Below, piece after piece: positions 7,372 to 63,077 of a DNA stretch of 64,000 nt. The stretch comes from Deltaproteobacteria bacterium (lineage in GTDB: Bacteria; Myxococcota_A; Polyangia; Polyangiales; Ga0077539). The stretch lies in assembly GCA_030694465.1 (NCBI GenBank), contig JAUXYJ010000023.1, forward strand, positions 434,001-498,000, in the 5' to 3' direction. The stretch's first letter is position 1. Each line of letters starts with the position of its first letter. The position numbers and the translations under genes were made by a program. The notes under the pieces were generated by a model. That model worked only from the letters and a program-made list of their open reading frames with translations. It did not search any database and was not told the origin of the DNA.

Positions 7372-8664
7372 TCAGCGGCGTGGCGCGATCTGCAAGCGCA
7401 CAGCTTGCCCATAGTGGTCGCTGAGCGGGCCCATACGACCGTCGCTGTACGGCACTGGATCGACGAACGCGACGGTGCTCTCGGCGACGTGGATGCGGTT
7501 GTCTGTGTCTCTCGCGAGCACATAGTCCAGGCGCGCCGGAAACTCGGTTCCTGCGTACTGCGCGAAGTACATCGCGTTGCAATCGGTCCCTGTAAACACG
7601 GTGTTTGGCGTGCGCGCGCAGTAGCCCGCGTCGCCGAGGGGCACCTGCAGCGCCATCGCCGGGTTGCTCGGCACGAGGTCGCCCAGGGTGATGTCCGCGT
7701 CGGCGTCGGCCATGCTCCGCGCGCGCACGGCGAGGTCGGTCACGCCGGCGTAGTGCATCATGACGGGGTACGACAGCGTGTTGGCGAACCAGTCGGGCTC
7801 GGAGGTCCCGTTGGCGAGCGCCCAGCGGTCGGTCGCGTAGTACGGCGCCGCGTTGAGATCCCCCATGACAAAGAGCAGGGCGTTGTCGGTCACGTTGCGA
7901 CGGGCGTGAAGACCGAGCTCACGAGCATGGGCCATTCGCAGGCGATACGCAGACGGAAACGCTGCGGTGTGTGTGTCGTACACGACCACGGGACCGAGCG
8001 CGGGGCTCTCAAAACGCACCGAGAGAAAGCCGCGGCTGTAGCCATTGGCGGGATAGAATTCGTTGCCCGAGATCTCGCTGTATTGCTCAGCCAAGACCAC
8101 GCCGGGCGTGGGCGCCACAGAGGTCTTAACCGCGATGGCGAGCCCATCGGTGTAGCCCGCGCGCGACGAGGTGACGACCCAGTATCCCGCGGTGGCTGCG
8201 GCCGCGCGAAAACGTGTGACGTCGCTCGAACGCCAGAGCTCTTGCACGGCGATGACGTCGTAGCCTTGGGCGAAGAGGGTCTGTGCCATCACCGCAGCGC
8301 GCACCTCGAGGTCAGGGGTCCGTGCGTAGTTTACGAGGCCGAAGAGCTGCACATCGAGCAGGCCCACGTTGTAGCTGAGCACACGCAGGGGCACCGCGTC
8401 TGCAGCGGCGGGCGGGTTGCTCGCTGCGATCTGCTGCAAAAGCGCACGCGGAGTAGGCTTCGCACTGAAGCTCAAGGGGTTGCGCAGCAGTTCGCCCACG
8501 GTGGTCGCGCCTGTGAGCAAACCCTGGTAGTGCGCGAACAAGGCCGAGGCAGCGAGGGCGACGTTGTCTTGCTCGACCGAGCCCAAAGGGATCCCTGCGC
8601 GACCACAGCTCACAGTGAGAGAAAGCGCCGACAAGACCACGCCGCGAAGAGCCAACAAACGCAT
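7372..8664 (-). CDS. Endonuclease/exonuclease/phosphatase-family lipoprotein
   Basis: 430 residues from ATG 8664. The start MRLLALRGVVLSALSLTVSC carries a lipobox (TVSC), so export and lipid anchoring are likely. Catalytic motifs of the DNase I-like (EEP) superfamily are present: VLSYNVGL, VQELWR (metal-binding Glu), YDTHT, MGDLNAAP (Asp/Asn) and SDHYG (Asp-His). The layout also fits bacterial sphingomyelinase C-like members. Substrate could be extracellular DNA or a phospholipid; the sequence alone does not decide. It is first in an operon with the macro-domain gene one base downstream, an odd pairing of an exported and a cytosolic product. Confidence 0.75.
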   Translation of the reverse strand: MRLLALRGVVLSALSLTVSCGRAGIPLGSVEQDNVALAASALFAHYQGLLTGATTVGELLRNPLSFSAKPTPRALLQQIAASNPPAAADAVPLRVLSYNVGLLDVQLFGLVNYARTPDLEVRAAVMAQTLFAQGYDVIAVQELWRSSDVTRFRAAAATAGYWVVTSSRAGYTDGLAIAVKTSVAPTPGVVLAEQYSEISGNEFYPANGYSRGFLSVRFESPALGPVVVYDTHTAAFPSAYRLRMAHARELGLHARRNVTDNALLFVMGDLNAAPYYATDRWALANGTSEPDWFANTLSYPVMMHYAGVTDLAVRARSMADADADITLGDLVPSNPAMALQVPLGDAGYCARTPNTVFTGTDCNAMYFAQYAGTEFPARLDYVLARDTDNRIHVAESTVAFVDPVPYSDGRMGPLSDHYGQAVRLQIAPRR

Positions 8665-8778: not shown

Positions 8779-10026
8779 TTAATTGCAGAGCGTGCGGCAG
8801 TTGGTTCGCTCTTGGCGCTGGCACGACAGGCCATCAAACGTGCCTCGCGAGAGCTGCCATCGGTGGGTCGCGAGGTCAAAGATCCAGACGTCGTTGGCGA
8901 GGCCACAGTCGGTCTTTCCGCCGTAGACGAGGACGCGGTTGCGGGGAGCGTCGATCGCGACGATGGCTGCGCTGCGGCGCTCGGGCGTACCCATCGCGGG
9001 CACGACAAAATTCGCAGGAAAATCACAGAACCCTGCGGGCGGTTGGTCCAACGTGTCCCCCGCGTTGTGCACGGTGACCTCACCTGTCGCGCTCACGCTG
9101 ATTGCGTCATTGCGGTTGCCCAGCGCGCCATCATCGTGGCCACCAAGCAAGAGCACGCCCGCGCCCTCGGGGACCATGCCGGTGTTAATCCGTCCCACGA
9201 TCGCGTCGTGCTGATCGAGCAACCGTGTCCACTGGCCCGAAGTGAGATCCATGCGCCAAATATCAGTGTTAAAGGGCCCCTGAAACGCGTTCGCGCCGCC
9301 GCCCCCGAACATCGTGAGGCTCCGTCCCGAGAGCACCATGCTGTGAAACAATCGCGCGCTCGGGGGCGTCCCCATCGCAGGGACGCGGCGCCAAGTATTG
9401 CTCGCGAGCGAGAGGGCCCAGAGGTCACTCTGAGGCGAAAAACTCGCGCCCGACGCGCTCGTGTTGCCGCCGTAGATCAAGAGCTCATCGGTGACCGCAT
9501 CGTAGGCCGCGGCCGAGTTTGCGCGCGGCGTAGGCCCTGCAGTCGCAGAGAGCTGCGTCCAGGTCTGTGCGCTAATGTCCAACGCCCAGACGTCGTTGTA
9601 GAGCGTGTAGCTACCTGATGTTCCGGCGCGAAAACGCCCGCCGAACACGATGAGCCGGTTGCGCGTGCTGTCATACGCCGAGGCAGCGCGGGCGCGCGCA
9701 GAGGGTGGATTTGCCGCATCGAGGCTCTCCCAACGGTCGCACGTCGCGTCATAGCGCCAGAGGTCATTGCGAGCCATCGGCGAGGGGATGCACATCACCG
9801 TCGGCCCCACGTCCCCGCCAAAGACGTAGAGCAGCCCCGTCCTAGGATCCACTGCGCCCACCGCGTCTCCGCGTGCCTGGGGCTGCGCAGTGCCCGACGG
9901 AGGGCACATCACCGCGGCCTCTGCGCCACTGTCCACACTGGCATCGCCAGCGGGCGGCGCCGCAGCGCAAGAAGCAAGGGTCCACCACAGCACGTTGCAC
10001 GCGCTCCATCGCATCCCGATTCGCAT
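8779..10026 (-). CDS. Kelch-repeat lipoprotein
   Basis: 415 residues from ATG 10026. The signal region RWSACNVLWWTLASC ends in a lipobox-like LASC. At least six Kelch repeats can be read from their GG doublets: LYVFGGD, LIVFGGR, LLIYGGN, LTMFGGG, VLLLGGH and VLVYGGK, each followed by a Trp-containing strand. They would form a beta-propeller, probably for binding at the cell surface. There is no catalytic motif. It is divergent from the lipoprotein starting at 10093. The large family of Kelch lipoproteins in Polyangia lacks a known function. Confidence 0.8.
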   Translation of the reverse strand: MRIGMRWSACNVLWWTLASCAAAPPAGDASVDSGAEAAVMCPPSGTAQPQARGDAVGAVDPRTGLLYVFGGDVGPTVMCIPSPMARNDLWRYDATCDRWESLDAANPPSARARAASAYDSTRNRLIVFGGRFRAGTSGSYTLYNDVWALDISAQTWTQLSATAGPTPRANSAAAYDAVTDELLIYGGNTSASGASFSPQSDLWALSLASNTWRRVPAMGTPPSARLFHSMVLSGRSLTMFGGGGANAFQGPFNTDIWRMDLTSGQWTRLLDQHDAIVGRINTGMVPEGAGVLLLGGHDDGALGNRNDAISVSATGEVTVHNAGDTLDQPPAGFCDFPANFVVPAMGTPERRSAAIVAIDAPRNRVLVYGGKTDCGLANDVWIFDLATHRWQLSRGTFDGLSCQRQERTNCRTLCN

Positions 10027-57538: not shown

Positions 57539-58402
57539 TTATCCCTGCAATTGCATCGTCGTCTGCGCAGAAATCGCAGTGACCTGCTGCTGACGTCCCC
57601 GCGTGGTGGTCGTGACATTGAGCGTGAGATTCGTGCTCGATTGCTGAACAACTCCGCGCTCGACCGCCAACAGCACTTCACCCGTCGCGGTGCCTGCCCC
57701 TGTCGCGGTCACGTTGGGTGCGACCAGCCCTGACGGGACGCTCAAGGTCATCGAGGTCGCGAGCACTGCAACGGTGCTCCCCGCCACGCGCCGAAGCTCG
57801 CGCAGCGTGTACTGCAGCTCGATGCGAAGCGTGAGATTCGCGCTCCCCATCGCCATGCGCACCGTCTTGGTATCCGTCCATCGCTGCCCCACCGTGACGG
57901 GCCCTGTCGGCAAGAGCGGCGCGGTCTGCTCGACGTTTTGCAACAGCTGCTCACCCATCGAGGCCATCACGGGGGGCAAGCCACGCACGGGCTGTCGCGA
58001 CACCATGCGACCTCGTCCATCCATTTGGTACTGAAACACTGCGCCCATCATGGCTTGCGCAAACTGCTGTCGCACCGCGGTGGTCATCGCGCCGGACTGA
58101 ATATCGAACGCGGTCGTCCGAGCGCGGATGTCCGCGACCCCTGCGGGCGTCACGCTCAGCGTCTCAAACGCGAGGGTCTGCGACGTGCTGCTTCGTAGCC
58201 CCGCCATCTGTTGCTGCACGCGCATCGCGTACACGTTGCGTTGCCCGGGCGTAAAGCGCAACACCAGTGAAATCGCTGACGGATTGGCCGAGACCCCGGC
58301 ATCAGCACGCGGCGGCGATTGCTGCGCAAGCGCCCCACCTGAGGCAAAAATCGAGGCCGATAACAACACGAGCGACGAGGCTGTTTTGAGCTTGCTCACC
58401 AT
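57539..58402 (-). CDS. Secreted DUF6263-like protein
   Basis: 287 residues from ATG 58402. The signal peptide VLLSASIFASGGALAQ ends at a typical Ala-x-Ala site. Repeated beta strands with many Thr, Val and Gln follow (RFTPGQRNVYAMRVQQQMAG, DGRGRMVSRQPVRGLPP, GQRWTDTKTVRMAMGSANL). This is the pattern of DUF6263-type periplasmic proteins, in which a 'GQxW' strand lies in the second half. Function unknown. It contains an exact CAGYGAAATCRCTG motif (58265-58278) coding Ser-Ala-Ile-Ser. Confidence 0.65.
   Translation of the reverse strand: MVSKLKTASSLVLLSASIFASGGALAQQSPPRADAGVSANPSAISLVLRFTPGQRNVYAMRVQQQMAGLRSSTSQTLAFETLSVTPAGVADIRARTTAFDIQSGAMTTAVRQQFAQAMMGAVFQYQMDGRGRMVSRQPVRGLPPVMASMGEQLLQNVEQTAPLLPTGPVTVGQRWTDTKTVRMAMGSANLTLRIELQYTLRELRRVAGSTVAVLATSMTLSVPSGLVAPNVTATGAGTATGEVLLAVERGVVQQSSTNLTLNVTTTTRGRQQQVTAISAQTTMQLQG
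58265..58278. repeat. Quasi-palindrome CAGYGAAATCRCTG copy
   Basis: CAGTGAAATCGCTG inside the DUF6263-like gene. The reading frame differs from the Ser-Glu-Ile copies, which argues against a purely protein-level cause. Confidence 0.5.
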
Positions 58403-58562
58403 GGCGGCGCGCACCCTATCACGGGCGATCGCGCGGTCACCCTTTGCTGCCGATTCGCGATGTGTCCCCTCCGTGATTGGGCGAGCGTCAGCGCCCAGGC
58501 TTCGATCCTGCGTGTCCATCCAGTGATTGACGAAGCATCGAACAGTCCGCTTCAATCCCGAC

Positions 58563-58940
58563 ATGCACCGAGTCGCCAAGTTATGCGTTCGCCGTGGCCC
58601 TGTGCCCAGCGTCGGTCGTCGATTCGGTGCTGCAATCGGGCTGGTGATTGTCATTGCGATCGTGGCCGGATGTGCTCCCTCGCCATGCGAGCGACGGGTC
58701 GCGTGGGCGTCGCGAGACTCCAACGCGTGCGTAAGTTGCGAGCGAATGTGCAAGCAAACCGCGCAAGAGCGAGCCCCGTTGGGGTGTGAAGCGGAGCTCG
58801 CGTGCGTCGCGCGATGCCCCGACCGGAGCGCGCTTACCTGTGGCTGCGTGGACCAGTGCCTACGTACTGCCCCTTGCACTGCCGCGTGGAATGCCCTGTC
58901 GGCCTGTCTCGCGCAGAGCTGCGACGAGGCGTGCCGGTAG
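58563..58940 (+). CDS. Small Cys-rich lipoprotein
   Basis: 125 residues from ATG 58563; a TTG at 58527 is possible. The signal peptide AIGLVIVIAIVAGC has a good lipobox. The mature 75 residues hold at least 14 Cys, spaced as CERR, CVSCERMCKQT, GCEAELACVARC, CGCVDQCLRTAPC and ACLAQSCDEAC, suggesting a small disulfide-rich fold. It is divergent from the DUF6263-like gene and 8 bp from the convergent kinase stop. Function unknown. Confidence 0.65.
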   Translation: MHRVAKLCVRRGPVPSVGRRFGAAIGLVIVIAIVAGCAPSPCERRVAWASRDSNACVSCERMCKQTAQERAPLGCEAELACVARCPDRSALTCGCVDQCLRTAPCTAAWNALSACLAQSCDEACR

Positions 58941-58948
58941 GCATGGGC

Positions 58949-60334
58949 TTAGATGCGAGAGGCGCGCTCGAGCGGTACCAAAATGGTGCTCAACCGCTCG
59001 CGAAGCGCCGCGTCTTTGCCCACAAAATGCACGATCCCGAGCTGTTGCAAGAGCAGCAGCTCACCGAGCTGTGCGCGGCCCGAGACGCTGACAATGGTCG
59101 TCCGCTCGGTCAGGTGCGTGGCGCGAAGATGCATGCACACTTGGATCCCGTTCATGGTGGGCATGTGCAAATCGAGCAGTAAAACATCAGGAAGCGAGCG
59201 CCGAACGAGCTCGACCGCCTGAGCTCCATCCGCTGCGGTCAACACCCGCGCAGCCGGAACACACTCTTGCACACTGGCAAGCAGCACCGCGAGCATCACG
59301 GGATCATCGTCCACGATCAGCACCGTAAAGGGCCGGCGCTCGGCGTCCGTCGCGACGCTCACCTCTCGAGAAATCTCGCTTCGCACCATCCGCAGCTGGA
59401 GCAGCAAGAGCTCAGCGCTCTGAGATCTCCGCTCGGGCGCTGGGTTCACCAGCTCATCGATCAATTGAACGAGCTTGGGGTGCACGTCGTGACGATGTTT
59501 TGCCAGTGATTCTGCAGGCGAACTCTGTTGATCCACGAGCGTCCTGAGGTCATGCCCCATGTACGGCCTTCGCCCCGAGAGCAGCTCAAACGCGACGACC
59601 CCCAACGAGTACAGGTCCGCAAGGTGCCATTCACCTTTGCGCTGCTGGCCAGCGATCACCTCGGGAGCCATGTAGGGCGGAGAGCCCGCGACGCTGTCTG
59701 CGCCCTCGTAGCTCTCTTTGACGAACAGCCCAAAATCCATCACCACCACACGGTCGTTGGGGGCGAGCAAAATGTTCGAAGGCTTCACGTCTCGATGAGC
59801 GATCTGTGCACGATGCATCGCTGCGAGCGCGTCGCACACATCGGTCATGATCGTGAGGACCTCGAGCTGCGTAAGACGCTGTCCGGACGCTTGCAGTCGC
59901 GCGGAGTGCGCGCGCAAGGTGACGCCGTACAGGCGCTCCATGACGAGAAAATCGATGCCGCGGTGGTTGCCAAAGGCATAGGCCGCGACGGTCGAGCGAT
60001 GCTGCACTGCGGCCATCGCTTGCGCTTCGAATCGCAGGTATTTCGCTGATACTCCTGGATGGCTCACCTTGATCGCCACGCGACGGTTGAGCCAACGGTC
60101 GTGCGCTTCAAACACGACACCCATCCCGCCCTCGCCCAGCCCCTCGCCCACTTCGTACACGCCTGAGATCAGCTCGCCGATTTCAAACGGGATGTGCCCT
60201 ACTGCCGCCGGTGGAGGGCTCTCAGAGACAATCGCCGCCGGATGTACGGGAACCTCGAAGGTCACGCTCGCGCTGCTGCTTGAGCGCAAGCCTCGGGCCT
60301 CTCCGCCTTCAGGGGAGTTGTCGTTCTCACTCAT
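58949..60334 (-). CDS. Ser/Thr protein kinase fused to a C-terminal receiver domain
   Basis: 461 residues. A disordered start (1-50) precedes a Hanks-type kinase (about 59-320): GLGEGGMGVVF, Lys89 in AIKVS, HRDVKPSN, DFG (200-202) and APE. A response-regulator receiver domain (about 337-455) follows: acidic DDD (344-346), phospho-acceptor Asp388 in LLLDLHMP, SVSG and Lys439 in VGKD. All catalytic residues of both modules appear intact. No transmembrane helix. The chain could let an upstream phosphorelay set kinase output. Its start overlaps the HPt gene stop (ATGA), so the two are coupled. Confidence 0.9.
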   Translation of the reverse strand: MSENDNSPEGGEARGLRSSSSASVTFEVPVHPAAIVSESPPPAAVGHIPFEIGELISGVYEVGEGLGEGGMGVVFEAHDRWLNRRVAIKVSHPGVSAKYLRFEAQAMAAVQHRSTVAAYAFGNHRGIDFLVMERLYGVTLRAHSARLQASGQRLTQLEVLTIMTDVCDALAAMHRAQIAHRDVKPSNILLAPNDRVVVMDFGLFVKESYEGADSVAGSPPYMAPEVIAGQQRKGEWHLADLYSLGVVAFELLSGRRPYMGHDLRTLVDQQSSPAESLAKHRHDVHPKLVQLIDELVNPAPERRSQSAELLLLQLRMVRSEISREVSVATDAERRPFTVLIVDDDPVMLAVLLASVQECVPAARVLTAADGAQAVELVRRSLPDVLLLDLHMPTMNGIQVCMHLRATHLTERTTIVSVSGRAQLGELLLLQQLGIVHFVGKDAALRERLSTILVPLERASRI

Positions 60335-61344
60335 AATATTCCTCGACGTGAGATCGAAATCGTAGCGCCGAGGTCACTGGGCGCGCCTCCAAAGGTCTCA
60401 CTCGACCGGCTCCGAGACATCACACTGCTTCGCTCACTGAGGGTGTCGTCCAGCAGCTGTGAGACCGCGCTCATCACGTTCGCCAGACTTGGGCGCCGCT
60501 CAAGCGCACGATTCGCCCAAGAAGCTGGCCCCAAGCTCACCGTCCGCAGCGCGGCCCACTCGGGCACCAGCGACTGGGGCGGGTCATCCACAATGACTAC
60601 CGTGGGCGACTCATCGAGAGTCACAAGCCTCGCCCCGAGCGCCTCGAACCCGGCCCGCATCACAGAGCGCATGAGCGCATCAGAGGTCTCACACGCGATC
60701 AATTGACCTGCAAATACCCCTGGAAGAAGCGACTGCGCGGTGTCCAGCACGTTGGCCGACAGACCGACCAGGTCCGCCCCCGCGCGCAGAGCCATGACAT
60801 GCTGCGCCGTGGTCGCGCCCTCGATGACGACCATGAGCAGCCCCTCACCCAGTCGATCACGCGCCTCGCGGATCGCTTGGCTCTTTGCCTCGTGGCTCTC
60901 GATCACACACACGCCCTGCGGCCGCGTCGCGAGGTCGCTGAGGCTCCGATGGACAAACGCGCTTTGCACGGTTCCGAGTAAATTCTCTGAGAAATCTCCG
61001 ATGAGATGGATCGGTGCCGAGCTCGACAAGCGAAGCGATGCGATCGGTCGGGGGCTCTCGCTCAGCTGTGCATCCAGCGCGCGAGACAGCGCGATCGCCT
61101 GCCCATGCCAACGTTCGCCCTGCGATTCAAGGGCTCGTTCAAGCTCAGCAGCATGCTGACCCACGCTGGTAAAACCCAGGCTCGAAGCGGTCCCTGCCAA
61201 CCGATGGGACTCGACGCAGAGCGCGTGTTGCATGGCCTTTGAGTCATCTCGCAGCGCCAACCGCGACAGCCTCTCGATCGTCGCGCGCGAGGTCCAGAGC
61301 GACCACCCAAACGCGTCCCGAACGGTATCAATGCTGTACGTCAC
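60331..61344 (-). CDS. HPt-domain protein with degenerate receiver-like regions
   Basis: 337 residues from GTG 61344, chosen for a strong upstream AGGGGGAG. A frame extending to 61482 has no better start. Residues 8-95 form an HPt helical bundle with HALCVESHRLAGTASSLGF, where His47 is the likely phospho-acceptor. Two later alpha/beta regions (about 115-205 and 230-310) resemble receiver folds but lack the full acidic and Lys set (for instance VVIVDDPPQSLVP). It is coupled to the kinase-receiver gene downstream and may hand a phosphoryl group to Asp388 of that protein. Confidence 0.7.
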   Translation of the reverse strand: MTYSIDTVRDAFGWSLWTSRATIERLSRLALRDDSKAMQHALCVESHRLAGTASSLGFTSVGQHAAELERALESQGERWHGQAIALSRALDAQLSESPRPIASLRLSSSAPIHLIGDFSENLLGTVQSAFVHRSLSDLATRPQGVCVIESHEAKSQAIREARDRLGEGLLMVVIEGATTAQHVMALRAGADLVGLSANVLDTAQSLLPGVFAGQLIACETSDALMRSVMRAGFEALGARLVTLDESPTVVIVDDPPQSLVPEWAALRTVSLGPASWANRALERRPSLANVMSAVSQLLDDTLSERSSVMSRSRSSETFGGAPSDLGATISISRRGIL

Positions 61345-61610
61345 GGCTCCCCCTGCAGGCAGCTGAGCGGGCACATGGTTGGCTGTGCGATACGCGTGCT
61401 CATCCGTCAGAATTGCGACTCTACCGCAGTCAACGAGCCTCTGCACGATCCATCGAAGGCACCACAGCGCGACGAACGCCAAGCGCGACGCATGAACGAT
61501 TGGAGCGCTTGCGTTTGGCAGTTGCTTTGCGCTTCATTGCGCAACACGGAGCACCCGAGGCGTGCCAACCTCGCCGGCAGCACTTCGAATCTCTTGGAGA
61601 AAAGCAACTC
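61345..61610. promoter_or_regulatory. Divergent intergenic region, 266 bp
   Basis: Between the HPt gene and the lyase-like gene. No ORF with its own RBS is seen, and no clear operator. It must hold promoters for both units. A ribosome site for the HPt GTG (AGGGGGAG, 61347-61354, minus strand) lies at its left end, and GGAG at 61596-61599 serves the lyase start. Confidence 0.45.
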
Positions 61611-63077
61611 ATGACACGCGCAGCCATCCCAACAACGGGCGAAGACCACGGTGAGATTCTCGCTTCGATGAAGTCCATGCGGGGTCAAGACGCAGACTGG
61701 AAGCACGGGCGAACCTGGAGCCTCGTCTACTTTGCCGGCGACGCGCATCACCAGCTGTTGCAAGACTCGCACAACATGTTCTTCGCCGAAAATGCCCTCA
61801 ATCCGATGGCATTTAAGAGCATCAAGCGCATGGAAGCCGAAGTCATCGCGATGTCCGCGTCCATGCTTCACGGCCCCGATGACGCCTGCGGAACAATGAC
61901 GACGGGCGGCACCGAGTCGATCTTGATGGCGGTCAAAGCAGCGCGCAACCGCGCACGCGCGCGAGGCCCCAAGACGCAACGACCCGAGATCGTCGCGCCC
62001 AGCACGGCTCACCCGGCGTTGATCAAGGCCGCACACTATTTTGGTCTCCACGTGCGAAAAATCCCCGTGGGGCCGGACTATCGCGCCGACGTCCGCGCGA
62101 TGCGCAAAGCCATGAACAAGAACACGGTGCTCTTGTTTGCGAGCGCGCCGCAGTATCCACACGGAGTCATCGATCCCATCGACGAGCTCGGGCGGCTGGC
62201 GCTGGAGTGGGGAGTGCCGTTTCACGTCGACGCGTGCATCGGTGGCTTTGTGCTTCCGTGGATCGAGAAGCTCGGACACGCGCTCCCTACTTTTGATTTT
62301 CGCGTCCCAGGCGTCACGTCCATGAGCGCGGATCTCCACAAGTATGGCTTCGCGGTCAAAGGCGCCTCGGTGGTGATCTACCGTGACATGTCTTACCTAG
62401 AGCATCAGTTCTTCGTCGAGACGGATTTTCCAGGCGGCGTGTATGCGTCGCCAACCATGACGGGCACCCGCGGAGGTGGCCCGATCGCGGCCGCCTGGGC
62501 CGCTCTGCACGCGGTCGGCGAAGATGGCTTCATGGAGCACACTCGCATCGCGATGGACGCCGCACAGCGCCTGCAGCAGGGCATCGTCGCGATCCCCGAG
62601 CTGCAGCTCGTCGGAAAGCCAGACGCGACGCTCGTCGCATGGTGCGCGCGCGACCGAGCGGTAGACATCTACGCGGTCGCAGATCGGCTCGAAGACGCAG
62701 GATGGAGCGTCGATCGACAGCATCGACCCGCGTGCATTCATCACACCGTGACAAGCAACCACGCCACGGTCGTCGACGAGTACCTCGCGGACCTTCGCGA
62801 CGCTGTAGCCTTTGTAAAATCGCACCCCGAAGTCTCGGCACGGGGCAACGCTGCGATGTATGGGATGATGGCCAAGATCCCCTTTCGAGGGATGGTCAAA
62901 CAAGGCGTCGTGCAGGTGCTTCGTGGCATGTATGGCCCAGACGCCGCCACGTTTGATCCGACAAAAGTCGGCCAAGACGACGGGGTCATGGGCAAGGTGA
63001 TGGACGTTGTGGGACCCACGCTCAACAAGGTCCTCGATCAGGTCGATCGCATGCGCGACGCCGTACGATCGCGCTGA
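61611..63077 (+). CDS. PLP-dependent lyase, sphingosine-1-phosphate lyase-like
   Basis: 488 residues from ATG 61611. A group II PLP-decarboxylase fold: GTMTTGGTESILMA (about 94-107), FHVDACIGGF with the Asp that pairs with the pyridine nitrogen, and SADLHKYGFAVKGASVVIYRD with the PLP Lys244. The 'HKYGFA.KGaSvv.YR' block and overall order fit the S1P lyase (DPL1) branch better than glutamate or aromatic decarboxylases. It would split a long-chain phospho-base into a fatty aldehyde and phosphoethanolamine. Sphingolipids are known from several Bacteroidota and Myxococcota. Divergent from the HPt-kinase unit. Confidence 0.85.
   Translation: MTRAAIPTTGEDHGEILASMKSMRGQDADWKHGRTWSLVYFAGDAHHQLLQDSHNMFFAENALNPMAFKSIKRMEAEVIAMSASMLHGPDDACGTMTTGGTESILMAVKAARNRARARGPKTQRPEIVAPSTAHPALIKAAHYFGLHVRKIPVGPDYRADVRAMRKAMNKNTVLLFASAPQYPHGVIDPIDELGRLALEWGVPFHVDACIGGFVLPWIEKLGHALPTFDFRVPGVTSMSADLHKYGFAVKGASVVIYRDMSYLEHQFFVETDFPGGVYASPTMTGTRGGGPIAAAWAALHAVGEDGFMEHTRIAMDAAQRLQQGIVAIPELQLVGKPDATLVAWCARDRAVDIYAVADRLEDAGWSVDRQHRPACIHHTVTSNHATVVDEYLADLRDAVAFVKSHPEVSARGNAAMYGMMAKIPFRGMVKQGVVQVLRGMYGPDAATFDPTKVGQDDGVMGKVMDVVGPTLNKVLDQVDRMRDAVRSR

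Follow-up and report, generated by a model that had tools for sequence, protein, structure and literature searches.

An HPt gene overlaps the gene of a receiver-bearing Ser/Thr kinase

The window analyzed here is the whole 64,000-nucleotide stretch of a Deltaproteobacteria bacterium genome (GCA_030694465.1, contig JAUXYJ010000023.1, positions 434,001 to 498,000 of the forward strand). On its minus strand lies an HPt gene followed by a gene for a Hanks-type Ser/Thr kinase with a C-terminal receiver (Table 1), and we confirmed the ATGA overlap between the two that a preliminary description of this DNA had reported. That description had also claimed an intact acceptor His in the HPt-like protein, a complete kinase joined to a complete receiver, and the lack of a histidine kinase in the unit, all of which were borne out by the analyses given below.

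Table 1. Coordinates of the HPt/kinase-receiver unit within the window
Feature	Position	Strand	Evidence
HPt protein, 337 aa, N-terminal HPt and degenerate receiver-like C-terminal part	60331..61344	-	Pfam Hpt 3.2e-07; homologous proteins in one sister genus (three genomes)
HPt domain, four-helix bundle, ~residues 1-97	61054..61344	-	AlphaFold2 model
Acceptor His47 codon, motif HRLAGTASSLGF	61204..61206	-	Sequence; His kept in 37/37 HPts
Degenerate receiver-like region, ~residues 213-275	60520..60708	-	Profile comparison with REC: probability 92%, E 7e-07
ATGA overlap, HPt stop / kinase start	60331..60334	-	Sequence read
Hanks-type Ser/Thr kinase with C-terminal receiver, 461 aa	58949..60334	-	Pfam Pkinase 2e-40, Response_reg 1.6e-17
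Kinase catalytic domain, residues 60-310	59405..60157	-	Pkinase 2e-40; Lys89, HRD 180-182, DFG 200-202
Receiver domain, residues 338-446, complete	58997..59323	-	Response_reg 1.6e-17
Phospho-acceptor Asp388 codon	59171..59173	-	Sequence; Asp kept in 94/96 kinase-receivers

The HPt gene starts with GTG at 61344, and an alternative TTG lies upstream at 61482. Pfam Hpt (PF01627) covers residues 19-94 of the protein with 30.9 bits, above the cut-off of 24.6, and the AlphaFold2 model places helices at residues 5-33, 36-56, 59-73 and 79-96 (block pLDDT mostly 71-93), with His47, whose original numbering was exact, in helix 36-56. For the HPt part, Foldseek returned the HPt structures 9h6e, 3myf, 1tqg and 7c1i at high probability, but with E-values of 0.07-0.3; the part alone was used because most of the HPt model is of low confidence, for which reason the whole model matched nothing at E below 0.001. 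By sequence, the HPt protein matched only designed TIM barrels among solved structures, and these marginal matches were dismissed as repeat-like noise. The Lys of the HxxKG motif is absent, being replaced by Ala in the window's protein (HRLAG) and by Val in its sister-genus homologues; many linked HPts carry other residues at this position, and the Lys is a common, yet not an essential, defining feature of HPt domains.

Beyond the HPt domain, which extends to about residue 97, the protein has ~240 more residues, modeled poorly by AlphaFold2. The preliminary description was right about the domain and His47 and missed this length and the receiver-like part that it contains. In the alignment with homologues, region 213-275 keeps Asp222 and Asp253, shows no receiver Lys and is shortened by deletions, and one homologue (L036) has a weak Response_reg match (0.022). 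As the region resembles receivers and has lost parts of the fold, we regard it as a degenerate receiver, which probably serves docking or regulation rather than acting as a phosphate station. Residues 104-207 were considered as a second receiver and rejected on a profile comparison probability of only 2%, although strands and helices alternate there in the model, at low confidence.

The kinase domain finds its best solved relatives in PknB (2.3e-31), and the receiver has its acidic residues at 342-344 along with Asp388, Ser418 and Lys440, so that all catalytic and phosphorylation residues are present in the fusion protein (AlphaFold2 mean pLDDT 82.7). Pfam detected neither a PP2C nor a GHKL domain in it. 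A HisKA search of the whole genome gave no match within the window and 37 matches elsewhere, the nearest on the same contig lying ~130 kb off.

The exact pair recurs in a sister genus

Among 57 genomes of the family and order, we found clear relatives of the HPt protein in three genomes of one sister genus; one further match (E 3.4e-4) covered only residues 66-154. In 379 genomes of the phylum, only weak HPt-domain matches appeared outside the family, and across both searches the protein is known from four genomes only. In all three sister-genus genomes the HPt gene immediately precedes, and by 4 bases overlaps, the gene for the kinase-receiver's closest relative (60% identity), and His and Asp are invariant in the pair across the four genomes, the window's included. 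Recurrence in related genomes, which the preliminary description had proposed as a check, is thus seen in three others of the same family, overlap kept. We also looked for diverged HPts upstream of the nearest non-family relatives (L039, L047, L049, L055 and L046) and rejected them: Asp/Glu racemase, DUF4013, alcohol dehydrogenase and GTPase genes lie there instead.

Several genes flank the unit. Divergent from the HPt gene, positions 61605-63077 (+) encode a sphingosine-1-phosphate lyase-like PLP enzyme (solved lyases, 3e-115), and a divergent gene of this kind flanks the unit in all three sister-genus genomes, where a PLP-decarboxylase-like gene stands at the same place (confirmed by Pfam at L036); this neighbor is a possible clue to the process that the kinase regulates. 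Downstream of the kinase, the gene at 57539-58879 (-) has a weak DUF6263 match, and the L036 kinase also has a DUF6263-like gene downstream. A small open frame rich in cysteine, whose start resembles that of a lipoprotein (58527-58940, +), is convergent with the kinase gene.

HPt genes are enriched around receiver-bearing kinases

Kinase-receivers related to the window's are present through the order, a wider occurrence that the preliminary description had missed. We took kinase surroundings from the same genome set, picking loci by kinase search and not by neighbors, and used local profiles to mark the kinase, receiver, HPt and histidine-kinase domains in them. HPt neighbors were called by profile; a motif regular expression misses members with Ile or Val after Gly. 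The set comprises 94 receiver-bearing and 80 receiver-less kinases, some of which share a stretch, the window and L119 (fetched for its HPt) being excluded from the counts.

Of the 94 kinase-receivers, 35 have an HPt within 3 kb, compared with 0 of the 80 receiver-less kinases (Fisher 1e-11, an optimistic P since related genomes are included). When histidine kinases are counted as well, the figures are 57/94 versus 5/80 (6e-15, optimistic on the same account), and all these neighbor counts are lower bounds, several contigs ending early and the local profile missing HPts that Pfam sees in hybrid kinases (L157, L159, L162 and L163). As a guard against circularity, we built an HPt profile from HPts that Pfam found at other places in the genomes, most of them with CheA-like sequences, and this independent profile found HPts at 19 of 93 kinase-receiver loci versus 0 of 45 receiver-less loci (4e-4). 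Among 20 neighbor HPts scanned, 18 score above the Pfam Hpt cut-off.

The acceptor residues, whose loss in most homologues would have spoken against the preliminary reading, are kept: His in 37 of 37 HPts and Asp in 94 of 96 kinase-receivers. The receiver Lys accompanies the Asp in those 94, and both exceptions are without an HPt or histidine-kinase neighbor; the kinase Lys, HRD-Asp and DFG-Asp are present in 96/96. These residues bear on a reverse flow, in which the Ser/Thr kinase would tune a two-component pathway by phosphorylating Ser/Thr residues of the HPt protein or of its own receiver. Phosphorylation of response regulators by Ser/Thr kinases is well documented (reviewed in PMC12189002), but the intact receiver Asp, acidic residues and Lys, together with the His of every HPt, are necessary for His-Asp transfer and would not be needed for a reverse flow, and we consider the reverse direction quite improbable.

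Linkage occurs in many gene orders

In a tree of 96 kinase-receivers, the "linked" label changes at least 12 times over well supported branches, a count that is approximate, the tree having been made by a fast method that leaves some long branches doubtful. Partners occur as an overlapping upstream HPt, a downstream HPt, a divergent HPt-REC, an HPt followed by the kinase-receiver and then a histidine kinase, an upstream hybrid HK-REC-REC-HPt, or an upstream HPt-REC-GGDEF. RTGA overlaps, which recur at L036, L037, L038, L119, L129, L132, L135 and L139, are found in several of the differing linked lineages. Read from these sequences, the linkage is not one inherited accident. Within the window kinase's own subclade, only 7 of 31 rows have an HPt or histidine kinase within ~1.5 kb; in five relatives (L039-L043), histidine kinases lie ~2.1 kb away and no HPt was found.

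Some of these loci have further features. In L039-L043, close relatives from outside the family, two adjacent divergent histidine-kinase genes lie one gene away (in L039 the intervening gene is a racemase and the histidine kinase is of PAS type). An HPt-REC with an apparently intact receiver is divergent from the kinase-receiver at L106, L121, L123, L134, L141, L147, L148 and L173, in two families of the order. At L109, one kinase-receiver lies between two separate HPt genes (7380-7700 and 9075-9401), and three histidine-kinase genes are found to one side of it. The HPt-REC-GGDEF protein is encoded directly upstream of the kinase-receiver in two cases (L155:4285-5940 and L158:4146-5891), where a branch between c-di-GMP and Ser/Thr phosphorylation is possible.

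The overlapping pair in three other genomes and the enrichment of HPts around receiver-bearing kinases indicate that the arrangement exceeds chance. Neighbors by chance or by history, co-transcribed without functional coupling, would suit the presence of the exact pair in only four related genomes; given the strong enrichment over receiver-less kinases, the many gene orders and the repeated overlaps, this explanation is extremely improbable.

The gene orders also bear on the route of the phosphate. A distant histidine kinase might charge the receiver directly, with the HPt serving as a phosphate sink or as a shuttle back to a hybrid kinase. HPt transfer is reversible, and the kinase-receivers at L169-L172 and L039-L043 neighbor an ordinary histidine kinase, no HPt having been found there. 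In several lineages, however, the HPt gene is directly upstream and overlapping, and an HK-REC-REC-HPt protein encoded upstream of a kinase-receiver suggests forward flow, which leaves direct charging unlikely.

More complete units occur elsewhere in the genome

The window's own genome has three further kinase-receivers with such partners. On contig C65 (L119), a 104-residue HPt (Pfam 2.1e-13) overlaps the second kinase-receiver by 4 bases, and a GAF-PAS-HisKA-HATPase gene adjoins the pair. A 1089-residue PAS-HisKA-HATPase-REC-REC-HPt protein is encoded upstream of the third kinase-receiver (L157, contig C73), and a histidine-kinase gene lies upstream of the fourth (L171, contig C17). As the same genome has complete units, the window's unit looks like an orphan form of such wiring. 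The earlier proposal that the phosphate comes from a distant histidine kinase fits these sister units, which include the histidine kinase or hybrid that is missing here.

A phosphorelay that may end in a Hanks-type kinase

The preliminary description had suggested that His-Asp signaling controls Ser/Thr phosphorylation through the receiver, and the occurrence of HPt and histidine-kinase neighbors for receiver-bearing, not receiver-less, kinases supports this view. Judging from sequence, we think it likely that the two genes encode the orphan last stage of a multistep His-Asp phosphorelay, with a Hanks-type Ser/Thr kinase, gated via the Asp388 receiver, as its output. A distant histidine kinase, most likely a hybrid, would charge His47 of the HPt protein, probably through a receiver, and the HPt would donate its phosphoryl group to Asp388 in the receiver fused to the kinase. 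The change in receiver state would in turn affect how active the kinase is or which partners it has. The kinase would then phosphorylate cytosolic targets, and translational coupling would hold the HPt and kinase-receiver proteins at matched levels. The gene pair itself is real and probably functional; phosphotransfer, its direction, the sign of regulation and the substrates are what we infer. Against the relay speak the limited spread of the exact pair, the scarcity of nearby HPt or histidine-kinase genes in most of the kinase's subclade, and the Ala of HRLAG in place of the usual Lys.

Relation to known systems

More broadly, and with somewhat less assurance, we suggest that the receiver-bearing Hanks kinases of the order may make up a large class of response regulators, repeatedly re-wired, in which phosphorelays made of standalone HPt, HPt-REC, HK-REC-REC-HPt or simple histidine kinases come to an end. 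This would be a prokaryotic counterpart of the Sln1-Ypd1-Ssk1 route to a MAPKKK, with the receiver and the kinase in one protein. In yeast, the Sln1-Ypd1-Ssk1 phosphorelay acts on the Ssk2/Ssk22 MAPKKK, such that an HPt-to-receiver relay controls a eukaryote-type Ser/Thr kinase. The logic is shared, although the yeast receiver and kinase are separate proteins, whereas they are fused in the window's protein. Response-regulator censuses, in reviews by Galperin, reportedly include Ser/Thr kinase outputs. Some myxobacterial sets of Ser/Thr kinases are among the largest known, and to our knowledge most of these kinases have no known activating signal; the kinase class described here often has its upstream partner in the next gene, so that its input is directly testable. 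Links reported in bacteria mostly run from a Ser/Thr kinase to a response regulator or histidine kinase (PMC12189002); if the relay reading is true, receiver-bearing Hanks kinases would widely connect the two systems the other way round.

Fusions of REC with noncanonical output domains have been described in general terms (PMC9239204), and the window's protein, like these unusual-output response regulators, joins a receiver to an enzyme output. Cyanobacterial HstK, in which a Ser/Thr kinase and a histidine kinase form one protein (Phalip et al. 2001, as cited in PMC2176072), likewise combines a Ser/Thr kinase with two-component parts in a bacterium; the window's kinase is instead joined to a receiver, and the HPt has its own gene next to it. 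Neither "receiver" nor "Hpt" occurs as a word in a survey, dating from 2005, of Ser/Thr kinase architectures in prokaryotes (PMC1262709), and a literature search, with subscription censuses outside its reach, found no description of recurrent pairing of HPts or hybrid kinases with Hanks kinase-receivers. The window's pair is one instance of a recurrent, apparently undescribed coupling.

Nearest in logic is HptB-HsbR of Pseudomonas aeruginosa, where HptB, fed by several hybrid kinases, phosphorylates the receiver of HsbR (PA3346), a protein that controls Ser phosphorylation (PMC6482189; PMC12189002). Among the adjacent genes of the window's unit scanned with Pfam, none encodes an HsbA-like anti-sigma-factor antagonist. 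In both systems an HPt acts, or here would act, on Ser phosphorylation through a receiver; the output of HsbR is a PP2C phosphatase with a GHKL-type kinase/anti-sigma domain acting on HsbA, whereas that of the window's unit is a Hanks-type kinase.
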